This document shows, in pieces, positions 57,605-64,000 of a stretch of DNA of 64,000 nucleotides. Below the pieces are notes generated by a model that did not search any database, was not told where the DNA came from, and worked only from the letters and a program-made list of their open reading frames with translations. A program made the translations under genes and the position numbers. Position 1 is the stretch's first letter. Each line of letters begins with the position of its first letter. The DNA is from Isoptericola cucumis (GTDB lineage Bacteria > Actinomycetota > Actinomycetes > Actinomycetales > Cellulomonadaceae), in assembly GCF_014635665.1 (NCBI RefSeq), contig NZ_BMDG01000003.1:248001-312000 (forward strand), written 5' to 3'.

Positions 57605-60562
<2,958 letters not shown>

Positions 60563-60661: not shown

Positions 60662-62218
60662 ATGTCTTCCTCCCGCATCGAGGGTGCCCTGGCCCGCAGC
60701 CGGGGCGCCTTCGGCACGCCCGCGCTCGCCCTCCTGCACCGCAAGGAGGGCCCGCTCGTCGTCGCGCTGCTGTCGCTCATCTTCACGCCGAGCCGCACCA
60801 CGGTGCCCACCGAGCAGATGCACGTCGAGGTCGAGGACTTCCTGGCCGAGGCCCGGGGCGCGGGTCACGACGTCCCGGACGAGCCGGCGCGGGCCCTGTG
60901 CTCGCGCTGGGTCGCCGGCCGGTGGCTGGTGCGCTCGCTCGACGACGACGGCGCCGAGCAGTACCAGGTGAGCTCGTACGCGACCGAGGCGCTGGCGTTC
61001 GTCGACCGGACGCAGGGCGGGCGCTCGCTGGTCAGCGAGTCGCGCATCCGCACGCTCCTGGTGGCCCTCGAGGGCCTGGCCCGCGACGCCCGGCCCGACC
61101 GGGAGTCCCAGCAGGCGGCCCTGCGAGAGCAGGTCGCGCGCGCGCAGGACGAGATCGCCCGGGCGGAGGCAGAGCTGGCGCGTCTCGAGGAGGGCGGCCC
61201 GGTGGCCGAGGTGCCGGCGGACCGTCTCGTCGAGCAGTTCGACAACGTGGCCTCCCTGGTGCGCGAGCTGCCCGCGGACTTCGCCCGCGTCGCCGAGTCG
61301 ATCGCGGAGCTGCAGCGCACCATCGTCACGGGCCTGCGCCAGGACGAGCGGGCCACGGGCGAGGTGCTCGGCGACTACCTCGACGCGTCGGACACCCTCA
61401 TGCGACGCACCCCCGAGGGCCGGGCGTTCTCGGGCGCGATGGAGCTGCTGCGCGACCCGTTGCTCCTGGAGCAGGTGGACGACCGGGTGCGGGCCGTCCT
61501 CGCGCACCCGTTCGCCGAGGGTCTGCCGGCCGAGCGCCGGGAGTCGGTGCGTGCCCTGTACGGCCAGCTGCTGTCGGCCGTCGACGCGGTCCTCGACGCG
61601 CAGGCCCGGGCGTCGCGGACCATCACGCAGCAGCTCAAGGTGCACAACCCGCTGCGCGACCGCGAGCTCGACGCCGCGCTGCGCGAGGCGACGGCCGCGA
61701 TGGCGGACTGGTTCCCCACCTCCGGCCGGAGCTCGCGGGTCGAGCCGTTGCGCTGGTTCGAGCGGGCACGGCTCGGGCGGTTCCGCGCCCAGCTGCACGA
61801 CCTGCGGCCCGACACCCCGCCGGAGACGCTGGCCGACGCCGACCCCGGCTTCGACGACGCGCCCGGCGAGGCGATGGCGGCGCTGCTCGGCATGGGCGGC
61901 CCGCGCTACGCCGAGACCGCCGCGCACGCCGCGCGCGTGCTGCGCGACGGCCCCGCGACCGCGGACGAGGCCTTCGCGGCCGCACCGCCCGAGCTGCGCC
62001 GCCCGGTGGAGCTGCTCGGGTACCTGGAGCTCGCCGCGCCGGGCGCGCTCGACGACGCCTTCGCGGACGGCGACGTGCCCGCAGCCGGCCTGCGGCGCGT
62101 GACGACCGTGCGTGCCGACGGCAGCACGCGCGACCTCGTGCTGCCACAGGTGCCGATCGCCGTGCCCGGCTCCGGCGACCCCGAGGACGACCCCGAGCAC
62201 GAGGAGAAGGACGCATGA
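60662..62218 (+). CDS. jetA: Wadjet system subunit JetA (DUF3375)
   Basis: This 518-residue DUF3375 protein is the MksF/kleisin-type subunit of a Wadjet anti-plasmid SMC complex. Family blocks: ALLHRKEGPLVVALLSLIF, SRWVAGRWLVRSL, SSYATEALAFVDR; a central coiled region near residues 140-180 (EQVARAQDEIARAEAELARL) and a C-terminal part with ELRRPVELLGYLELA. The acidic C-terminus (DPEDDPEHEEKD) leads into the overlapping jetB start. It bridges JetB and the JetC ATPase heads. Confidence 0.92.
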   Translation: MSSSRIEGALARSRGAFGTPALALLHRKEGPLVVALLSLIFTPSRTTVPTEQMHVEVEDFLAEARGAGHDVPDEPARALCSRWVAGRWLVRSLDDDGAEQYQVSSYATEALAFVDRTQGGRSLVSESRIRTLLVALEGLARDARPDRESQQAALREQVARAQDEIARAEAELARLEEGGPVAEVPADRLVEQFDNVASLVRELPADFARVAESIAELQRTIVTGLRQDERATGEVLGDYLDASDTLMRRTPEGRAFSGAMELLRDPLLLEQVDDRVRAVLAHPFAEGLPAERRESVRALYGQLLSAVDAVLDAQARASRTITQQLKVHNPLRDRELDAALREATAAMADWFPTSGRSSRVEPLRWFERARLGRFRAQLHDLRPDTPPETLADADPGFDDAPGEAMAALLGMGGPRYAETAAHAARVLRDGPATADEAFAAAPPELRRPVELLGYLELAAPGALDDAFADGDVPAAGLRRVTTVRADGSTRDLVLPQVPIAVPGSGDPEDDPEHEEKDA

Positions 62219-63000
62219 CCGACGTGGCCGACACCGAGGCTCCCGAGGCTCCCGACACCGGGGCGTCGGAGGACCCCGGCCTCTCCGGGGCGGACGGATC
62301 CTTCGTCGCGCCGTCGGCGATGGAGGACGACGTCGAGGCGCTGTTCGCGGGCGACACCGGGGTGCTGCCGTACGCCGCGCGACGGGCGCTGGCGCTCGTG
62401 CTGCAGCGTCGCTACCTGTCGGCGGCCGGCCACCCGACGGAGTGGAAGGCCCTGCTCGCCCACCAGGGAGTGCTGGCCTCGCGCTGCCACGACATGTTCG
62501 TCGAGCTGGTGGTCGACCGCGACTACGAGATCGCCTACAAGCGCCAGGTCCGCTCCGACGGGCTGAGCATCCCCGTACTGCTCAAGGACGAGCCCTACCG
62601 GCGGGTCGAGACGCTGCTCATGCTGTTCGCCCGCAACCGGTTCCGGCAGGAGCAGGGCGCCGGCGAACGGGCGGCGTACGTGGACGCGGAGGAGCTGGTC
62701 ACCTACGCGCTGGGCTTTCTCGCCCAGGACGAGACGAACCTCGCCGGCCGCCGCCGGGAGATCGACAACGCCGTCGCGGCGCTGGTGCGCGAGCACGTGC
62801 TGGACGAGGTCGCGGCGGGGCGCTACCGCGTCCAGCCGGTCGTCGAGGTGCTGCTGCCCGTGGAGCGGCTGCGCGAGCTGTCCGCGTGGTTGCGCTCGCC
62901 GTCGGCGACCGAGCCGGCCGAGCAGACCGAGCCCGACGGGCCTGCGGAGCCCGCCGAGACGACCGACGTCGTGGACGAGGACGAGGAGGCCCGGGCGTGA
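62215..63000 (+). CDS. jetB: Wadjet system subunit JetB (DUF4194)
   Basis: This 261-residue DUF4194 protein is the MksE-like KITE subunit. A disordered acidic N-terminus (about 40 residues) is followed by the winged-helix core: LPYAARRALALVLQRRYLSA, MFVELVVDRDYEIAYKRQV, LKDEPYRRVETLLMLFARN, then acidic C-terminus. ATG 62215 overlaps the jetA stop and follows GAGGAGAAGG. It should bind the middle of JetA. Confidence 0.92.
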   Translation: MTDVADTEAPEAPDTGASEDPGLSGADGSFVAPSAMEDDVEALFAGDTGVLPYAARRALALVLQRRYLSAAGHPTEWKALLAHQGVLASRCHDMFVELVVDRDYEIAYKRQVRSDGLSIPVLLKDEPYRRVETLLMLFARNRFRQEQGAGERAAYVDAEELVTYALGFLAQDETNLAGRRREIDNAVAALVREHVLDEVAAGRYRVQPVVEVLLPVERLRELSAWLRSPSATEPAEQTEPDGPAEPAETTDVVDEDEEARA

Positions 63001-64000
63001 CGCTCACCGGCGACATCACCAGCGGCATCACCAGCGGCATCACCAGCGACGCGGTCGAGCAGGCCCCTGCACCCCGGATGCAGCAGTCGCTGTTCGGCCT
63101 CATCCCGTCGGCGTCCGACGGGCGGCAGTGGGTGGCGCGCTCGGTGCAGCTGGTCAACTGGGGCGGCTACCACGGCCACCACGAGATCCGCCTGGCCGGC
63201 ACCACGACGCTGCTCACCGGGGCGTCCGGCTCGGGCAAGTCCACGCTGCTGGACGCGTACATCGCCCTGATGATGAGCCACACGACGCCGTTCAACGGCG
63301 CGTCCAACGGCGCCACGAGCGGGCGGGCGCGCGGCCAGGAGCAGCGCAACGTCGTGTCGTACGCCCGCGGCAAGCTCGACGAGCAGCGCAGCGGCGGGGC
63401 GGCGACGGCGAAGGACCGGGTGCTGCGGGGGGAGTCCTCGGACACCTGGTCGGCGATCGCGATGACCTGGTCGTCGCAGGCGGGCGAGCGGCTCACCGCG
63501 CTGCGCGCGTGGTACGTCCCGCGCGGTGCGACGCGCACCGACGAGACGACGGCCGTGCGCGCCGTCGTCGACGCGGACTTCGACGCCCGCGGGCTGGAGC
63601 CGCTCGCCGCGCAGCGCTTCGCCCGGGCCGGGCTCGCGGCCGCCGGCCTCACCACGTTCGACACCGACAAGGCGTTCGCGACGCGGCTGCACGCCGCGCT
63701 CGGCATCGGCGCCGCCGGCGACGGGGACACCGCGATGCAGCTGCTGGGCCGCATCCAGGCGGGCCAGCAGATCACCACGGTCGACTCCCTGTACAAGGCC
63801 ATGGTGCTGGAGGAGCCCGAGACGGTGCGCGTCGCCGCCCGTGCCGTCGCCCACTTCGACGAGCTCAGCGAGGTCCGCCACGAGATGGACCGCGCCCAGC
63901 GGCAGGTGGACGTGCTGCGCCCCATGCTGACCCACCGCCAGGCGATCGACGACGCCGTCGCCGCGCGCCGCGTCGTCGACGGCCTCGGGGTGGAGGGCCC
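62997..64000 (+). CDS. jetC: Wadjet system SMC-like ATPase JetC, N-terminal part (cut by window end)
   Basis: The first 334 codons are present and run off the window edge without a stop. Walker A is GASGSGKSTLLDAY (Lys81), preceded by SVQLVNWGGYHGHHEIRL as in SbcC/MukB-like JetC. The following part has TRLHAALGIGAAGDGDTAM and a start of the coiled-coil (LSEVRHEMDRAQRQVDVL). GTG 62997 overlaps the jetB stop and has GAGGAGG 7 bases before it. The first 27 residues contain an Ile-Thr-Ser-Gly repeat; ATG 63078 would remove them but has no ribosome site. JetD is expected beyond the window. Confidence 0.92.
   Translation, partial: MTLTGDITSGITSGITSDAVEQAPAPRMQQSLFGLIPSASDGRQWVARSVQLVNWGGYHGHHEIRLAGTTTLLTGASGSGKSTLLDAYIALMMSHTTPFNGASNGATSGRARGQEQRNVVSYARGKLDEQRSGGAATAKDRVLRGESSDTWSAIAMTWSSQAGERLTALRAWYVPRGATRTDETTAVRAVVDADFDARGLEPLAAQRFARAGLAAAGLTTFDTDKAFATRLHAALGIGAAGDGDTAMQLLGRIQAGQQITTVDSLYKAMVLEEPETVRVAARAVAHFDELSEVRHEMDRAQRQVDVLRPMLTHRQAIDDAVAARRVVDGLGVEG
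63012..63047 (+). repeat. Three tandem 12-bp units at the jetC start
   Basis: GACATCACCAGC is followed by two exact GGCATCACCAGC units, coding for Asp/Gly-Ile-Thr-Ser repeats ahead of the ATPase fold. Confidence 0.75.

Follow-up and report, generated by a model that had tools for sequence, protein, structure and literature searches.

A JetABC operon without its JetD nuclease behind leuS in Isoptericola cucumis and its relatives

The 64,000-nucleotide stretch of the Isoptericola cucumis genome analysed here (positions 248,001 to 312,000 of contig NZ_BMDG01000003.1; hereafter the window) ends inside an operon of three genes, jetA, jetB and jetC, which encode the kleisin, the KITE subunit and the ATPase related to structural maintenance of chromosomes (SMC) proteins of a type I Wadjet system. 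The gene for the Wadjet nuclease, jetD, is found neither next to these genes nor elsewhere in the genome, and the locus is thus a nuclease-free JetABC that in composition is like MksBEF, not a complete Wadjet. The source genome comprises 4.46 Mb in 29 contigs and is 99.96% complete. The window ends within contig C3, and the downstream genes were read on C3:305001-325000 (L009), where a coordinate equals the window coordinate minus 57000. The genes concerned lie as follows (window numbering):

57605 to 60562, plus strand: leuS, with Pfam leucyl-tRNA synthetase domains, the conserved upstream neighbour
60662 to 62218, plus strand: jetA, encoding an MksF-like kleisin of 518 amino acids (aa), ATG start, matching DUF3375 and JetA1
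62215 to 63000, plus strand: jetB, encoding an MksE-like KITE subunit of 261 aa, ATG start, matching DUF4194 and JetB1
62997 to 64000 in the window, plus strand: jetC, encoding an MksB-like SMC ATPase, GTG start, matching JetC1 and a Walker B domain
63219 to 63245, plus strand: Walker A motif GASGSGKST of JetC, a P-loop pattern at a computed position

The original prediction, made from the letters of the window, had read the genes behind leuS as jetA, jetB and jetC of a type I Wadjet plasmid-defence operon, and the family searches bear out their identity and order. JetA matched Pfam DUF3375 with 348.8 bits (cut-off 28.6), JetB matched DUF4194 with 119.7 bits (cut-off 32.7), and JetC matched SbcC_Walker_B and AAA_29 with 79.2 and 73 bits, respectively (cut-off 27 each). 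The best PADLOC models were JetA1 (530 bits), JetB1 (272 bits) and JetC1 (1421 bits, spanning residues 28-1147), and in a search of solved structures JetC (E ~1e-47) and JetB (E 0.03-0.04) resembled chains deposited under these names; an NCBIfam scan gave none of the three proteins a name above cut-off. All three genes overlap, by ATGA between jetA and jetB and by GTGA between jetB and jetC, and jetA begins 99 bp after leuS. The unbroken JetC with an intact Walker A that had been foreseen is there as well: 1004 of the 3450 bases of jetC fall within the window, where the frame stays open to the end, and it runs on to a stop at 66446 (window numbering), yielding a protein of 1149 aa that also carries the signature SGGESQEL and the Walker B motif VFLDEAF. 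The identity of the three proteins as type I Wadjet JetA, JetB and JetC, all encoded by intact genes, is well beyond chance, and the genome holds this single DUF3375 match.

A jetD gene had been expected past base 64000. Since the longest glgP frame opens 27 bp past the jetC stop, there is no room for jetD 3' of jetC, and its presence immediately beyond the window end is ruled out. Neither PF09983 (JetD_C) nor PF11795 (DUF3322) has a match in the whole source genome; both, and PF11855 too, match in the Corynebacterium glutamicum positive control. A further profile, built from an alignment (A1) of nine JetDs of the same JetC clade (the core type), accepted none of 57 candidates in the source genome, whereas it detects JetD in 4 of the 18 genus genomes and also picks up the divergent accessory JetDs of three of them (G084, G103 and G141). 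A jetD elsewhere in the genome is rejected, as none of the three models finds one. The original prediction had itself named the absence of JetD as grounds for abandoning its reading, so the label of a plasmid-defence operon is unsupported for the source genome.

In a search for jetD remnants with 25 JetDs as tblastn queries against the 36 nuclease-free loci of the first set, the best match (E 5e-4, 30% identity) lay inside jetC of L098 and not downstream of it; a very weak JetD match directly after jetC of L097 (E 1.4, 31 residues) could be a trace. We also took a census of the 1.7 kb after jetC in 73 core loci, for which 5 of 78 core JetCs with less than 1.7 kb after jetC were left out and JetC rows identical between loci were merged. 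The JetD model matched exactly the 10 JetD-bearing loci of this set, and the 63 nuclease-free loci hold no clade-wide shared gene in jetD's place. The commonest gene there is glgP (18 of 63), and other plus-strand groups occur in at most 7 loci each, reading-frame shadows of glgP being set aside. A common replacement effector downstream of jetC is rejected by this census.

JetABC without JetD is frequent in the family. In a sample of 200 Cellulomonadaceae genomes, DUF3375 occurs in 156. The 31 genomes with JetD_C are all among these, leaving 125 JetA-bearing genomes in which JetD is absent; DUF3322, found in 29 of the 200, agrees with the JetD_C count. Among the 184 genomes with at least 90% completeness and at most 5% contamination, the corresponding counts were 147 and 30. 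The 31 of 200 is a frequency of JetD and counts JetDs from all operons; the 10 JetD-bearing loci among the 73 core ones give no frequency, because JetD-positive loci were fetched on purpose. Within the genus, JetD is missing from 14 of the 15 blocks that were read next to leuS. All 18 genus genomes encode JetA and four encode JetD, which in three of the four belongs to an additional, divergent operon. The three genomes concerned, G103 (L077), G141 (L083) and G084 (L132), carry the divergent jetABCD besides a nuclease-free jetABC at leuS. In an order-level sample of 297 genomes, JetA was present in 123 and JetD in 66 (both in 62, JetA only in 61, JetD only in 4), and a phylum-level sample of 366 genomes contained 16 with JetA (15 over the cut-off), 9 of which also have JetD. 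JetA is thus much commoner in the family sample than in the phylum sample. That so many relatives retain an apparently intact motor but no cutter suggests that the motor has another job.

Presence and absence of JetD alternate across the JetC phylogeny, for which quick trees without bootstrap were used, to be read with a warning about long branches. A first tree of 61 loci (36 without and 25 with JetD) requires at least 11 changes in JetD presence, 9 of them forced by starred branches, and a larger one of 75 rows (73 core and 2 outgroup; 63 without and 12 with JetD) again requires at least 11, every one of them forced by starred branches. On the larger tree, the distribution of JetD shows no more clustering than shuffled labels (264 of 500 shuffles as low), and the clade around the window, whose 19 rows include most of the genus, contains no JetD at all. 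We picked seven near-sister pairs. Four of them (L125/L207, L124/L181, L129/L183 and L126/L092) have collinear 3' flanks that differ by a jetD-containing interval of 1.24, 1.24, 1.30 and 1.90 kb, present only in the JetD-bearing member; the downstream flanks of the other three (L188/L185, L130/L109 and L127/L108) were not alignable. Cellulomonas gelida has jetD and C. persica lacks it, in collinear surroundings. JetD thus appears to be an optional 3' module of the operon, with repeated loss, or loss followed by regain, in its history. As to the direction of these switches, loss is a simpler guess than gain.

The Toprim motifs EN, GDxD and EQE are kept in 10 of 10 core JetDs, and decay of these nucleases is rejected on these grounds. 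The MksG residues E236 and D279, and possibly the pair E349/E351, matter (PMC10123090) and were matched to the JetD alignment by our own analysis. In a JetD tree, the core JetDs are grouped apart from the accessory ones, with a branch support of only 67. The divergence of JetD relative to that of JetC has a median of 2.06 in core operons (5 pairs) and 0.97 in accessory ones (8 pairs), but the pairs were picked greedily and the ratio depends on distance too, so that the p of 0.006 should be read with caution. That JetD diverges faster in core operons is in keeping with a constraint acting on the motor but not on the nuclease. Two family members show apparent nuclease decay: L054 (G192) has a JetD with an in-frame stop and was excluded from the JetD models, and the match at G176:C29:36859-37074 lies in a 106-aa frame.

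The site of the operon is stable. JetA regions were read in 15 of the 18 genus genomes (all but G110, G149 and G153), 17 regions in total, two of which are the accessory jetABCD operons L077 and L083; the third such operon, L132, was read separately. In all 15 other regions, window included, jetA stands directly behind leuS. In 14 of these core loci, glgP follows at a distance of 27 bp to 2.4 kb; in G103 (L166), it lies 8.7 kb downstream. Outside the genus, leuS lies upstream of jetA in, for instance, Luteimicrobium xylanilyticum, Paraoerskovia marina, Sanguibacter hominis, Timonella, Jonesia and Flavimobilis, and about 3.7 kb from jetA in Luteimicrobium subarcticum; the flanks read of Cellulomonas and Promicromonospora loci contain no leuS. 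What had been proposed as possibly a stable defence locus is stable in its position, but without JetD the part of the proposal that concerns plasmid defence is not supported.

A fixed site does not mean a fixed block. In I. halalbus (L082/L214), the slot between leuS and glgP carries a divergent, complete jetABCD and not the jetABC of the genus; its JetA is only 42% identical to that of the source genome, compared to 84% for LeuS and 85% for GlgP, and the block has been swapped here. Across 29 leuS-linked loci (L193 excluded), JetC and LeuS distances correlate with r 0.60 (0 of 5000 permutations as high), or 0.64 without I. halalbus. With r only 0.60, strictly vertical inheritance of jetABC is rejected, and the block has been exchanged to some extent at a leuS site that itself stayed in place.

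The motor appears to be maintained by selection where the nuclease is missing. The ratio of nonsynonymous to synonymous substitution rates (dN/dS; Nei-Gojobori, eight nuclease-free pairs within the genus, some rows used twice) was 0.10-0.23 for JetC, 0.15-0.24 for JetA and 0.05-0.43 for JetB, similar to 0.10-0.24 for LeuS and 0.08-0.25 for GlgP (6 pairs available). Purifying selection on JetABC is thus about as strong as on leuS and glgP. Among core JetC rows scoring at least 1380 bits with the JetC model (duplicates included), the Walker A, SGGESQEL and Walker B patterns are intact in all 86 nuclease-free and all 14 nuclease-bearing ones. Decay of JetABC is rejected, as the ATPase motifs are kept and dN/dS is low.

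We consider it probable that JetABC, comparable to MksBEF, serves alongside Smc-ScpAB as a second SMC complex that is free of JetD and selected for a role on the chromosome. ScpA, the only Smc-ScpAB subunit searched for, is present in the same genome (145 bits). JetC dimers combine with JetA and JetB into a dimer of dimers that extrudes DNA loops; in the case of Wadjet, extrusion that ends on a small circle activates JetD (PMC10586767, PMC12647877). JetABC would accordingly be expected to assemble and hydrolyse ATP and, lacking JetD, to load on DNA and extrude or hold loops like Wadjet and MukBEF, without cutting. As such a complex cannot cut, its selected role would be chromosome organisation or segregation rather than plasmid destruction, and its retention under housekeeping-like constraint beside Smc-ScpAB likewise points to chromosome work, as for the MksBEF of Pseudomonas, for which a chromosomal role has been shown (PMC7485682).

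Several observations weigh against this reading. The nuclease-free share of JetA-bearing genomes is lower beyond the family (61 of 123 in the order-level and 6 of 15 in the phylum-level sample), and the imperfect LeuS-JetC correlation and the swap in I. halalbus mean that the jetABC block is not purely vertical. Nuclease-free core JetBs mostly retain an N-terminal LFAGDTGxL-like region that is common to JetD-bearing JetBs, and the idea that JetB has lost a docking motif where JetD is missing is rejected on this account. One JetD contact has been placed in the IFDR motif at the N-terminus of JetB (PMC10586767); if the LFAGDTGxL region is this motif, its retention after the loss of the partner would be unexpected. 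Finally, the related MksBEFG of C. glutamicum has no role in chromosome folding (PMC7083940), so that an actinobacterial JetABC need not act on the chromosome.

A non-chromosomal alternative is that JetABC still acts against plasmids or phages without cutting, extruding or compacting small circles and thereby hindering their replication or expression. JetABC is defence-type by sequence, and jetD-bearing relatives occur in the same JetC clade, so that the part which senses DNA has presumably stayed as in Wadjet; moreover, Smc5/6 silences some viral genomes (PMC10586767, PMC7617805). Still, the occurrence of JetA in 156 of 200 family and 18 of 18 genus genomes versus 16 of 366 in the phylum is unlike a patchy defence system, and we regard non-cutting defence as unlikely. 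More doubtful again is a working Wadjet in which an enzyme acting in trans, unrelated to JetD or not recognised as such, does the cutting. Given the fast divergence of core JetDs relative to JetC (2.06 versus 0.97), a very divergent copy could escape detection, yet three different JetD models found nothing genome-wide, the core-type model recognises even divergent accessory JetDs, and no clade-wide gene has taken jetD's place in the 63 nuclease-free loci. A disarmed remnant heading for loss, to which the missing jetD, the low JetA and JetC scores of L193 (Luteimicrobium album) and the damaged or fragmentary JetD of two family members might point, is very improbable in view of the unbroken frames, the 86 of 86 rows with intact ATPase motifs and the dN/dS values in the genus resembling those of leuS and glgP.

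Beyond the proposed chromosomal role for JetABC in the source genome, a broader picture is possible, though we hold it with less confidence: the Cellulomonadaceae-type JetABC may be a housekeeping DNA-looping machine, with JetD, a gene of about 1.2 kb at the operon end, as a plug-in weapon by which it is repeatedly armed and disarmed through gain or clean loss. If true, the boundary between condensin and defence would be crossed back and forth inside single genera. Close species pairs with the same motor, with and without the nuclease, permit direct study of the step by which SMC complexes shift between chromosome folding and immunity. For annotation, the locus is a warning that three consecutive jet genes are no proof of a working defence system.

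With type I Wadjet (JetABCD, MksBEFG or EptABCD), the locus shares the DUF3375 JetA, the DUF4194 JetB, the SMC-like JetC, the gene order and the overlapping frames, but the source genome lacks a JetD (DUF3322 plus Toprim JetD_C), adjacent or elsewhere. MksBEF of Pseudomonas aeruginosa likewise consists of kleisin, KITE and SMC without a nuclease and coexists with Smc-ScpAB (here, ScpA was found); the two are likened by composition and not by sequence, as our proteins match type I JetA1, JetB1 and JetC1 and have same-clade relatives with JetD. Escherichia coli MukBEF is also a nuclease-free member of the Wadjet group (PMC7617805), but the MukB N-terminal model PF04310 reached only 20.6 bits here (cut-off 23). 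MksBEFG of C. glutamicum is an actinobacterial relative with the same subunits that differs in having the nuclease MksG and in targeting plasmids instead of folding the chromosome (PMC7083940, PMC10123090). Nuclease-free complexes of the Wadjet group, such as MukBEF and Pseudomonas MksBEF, are thus already known, and several other members of the group are described as lacking MksG/JetD (PMC7617805); the supplement of that paper contains operons with optional MksG and may include these taxa. The evolutionary relationship of the SMC complexes has been called unresolved, with the suggestion that Pseudomonas MksBEF derives from JetABCD by loss of JetD (PMC10586767). What is new here is how often JetD comes and goes while JetABC is conserved; we found no literature on JetD-less JetABC in this family in a search that subscription papers, including the original MksBEF survey, fell outside.

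The gene order around the operon in L009 is VKOR, leuS, jetA, jetB, jetC, glgP, degV and comEA. VKOR, LeuS and GlgP were identified by family models, and degV and comEA were named from sequence only. A promoter and terminator scan found nothing. The loci L215-L231 (mostly Curtobacterium) encode a JetABC with about 41% JetC identity and no JetD recognised within the fetched flanks, some of which are very short. In L193 (Luteimicrobium album), JetA and JetC reach only 337 and 989 bits, well under the scores of its relatives, suggesting frameshifts or an assembly error. Four loci of order-mates with family code f11 differ in spacing, with about 5.6 kb between jetA and jetB in L134 and L152, 2.6 kb in L135 and 1.6 kb in L133. 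The jetC gene follows about 5 kb after jetB in L133 and 1 kb after it in L135. For L134 and L152, the sequence retrieved ends 3 kb past jetB and shows no jetC, which may be located farther on. In all four f11 loci, the operon thus appears to be spaced or rearranged.

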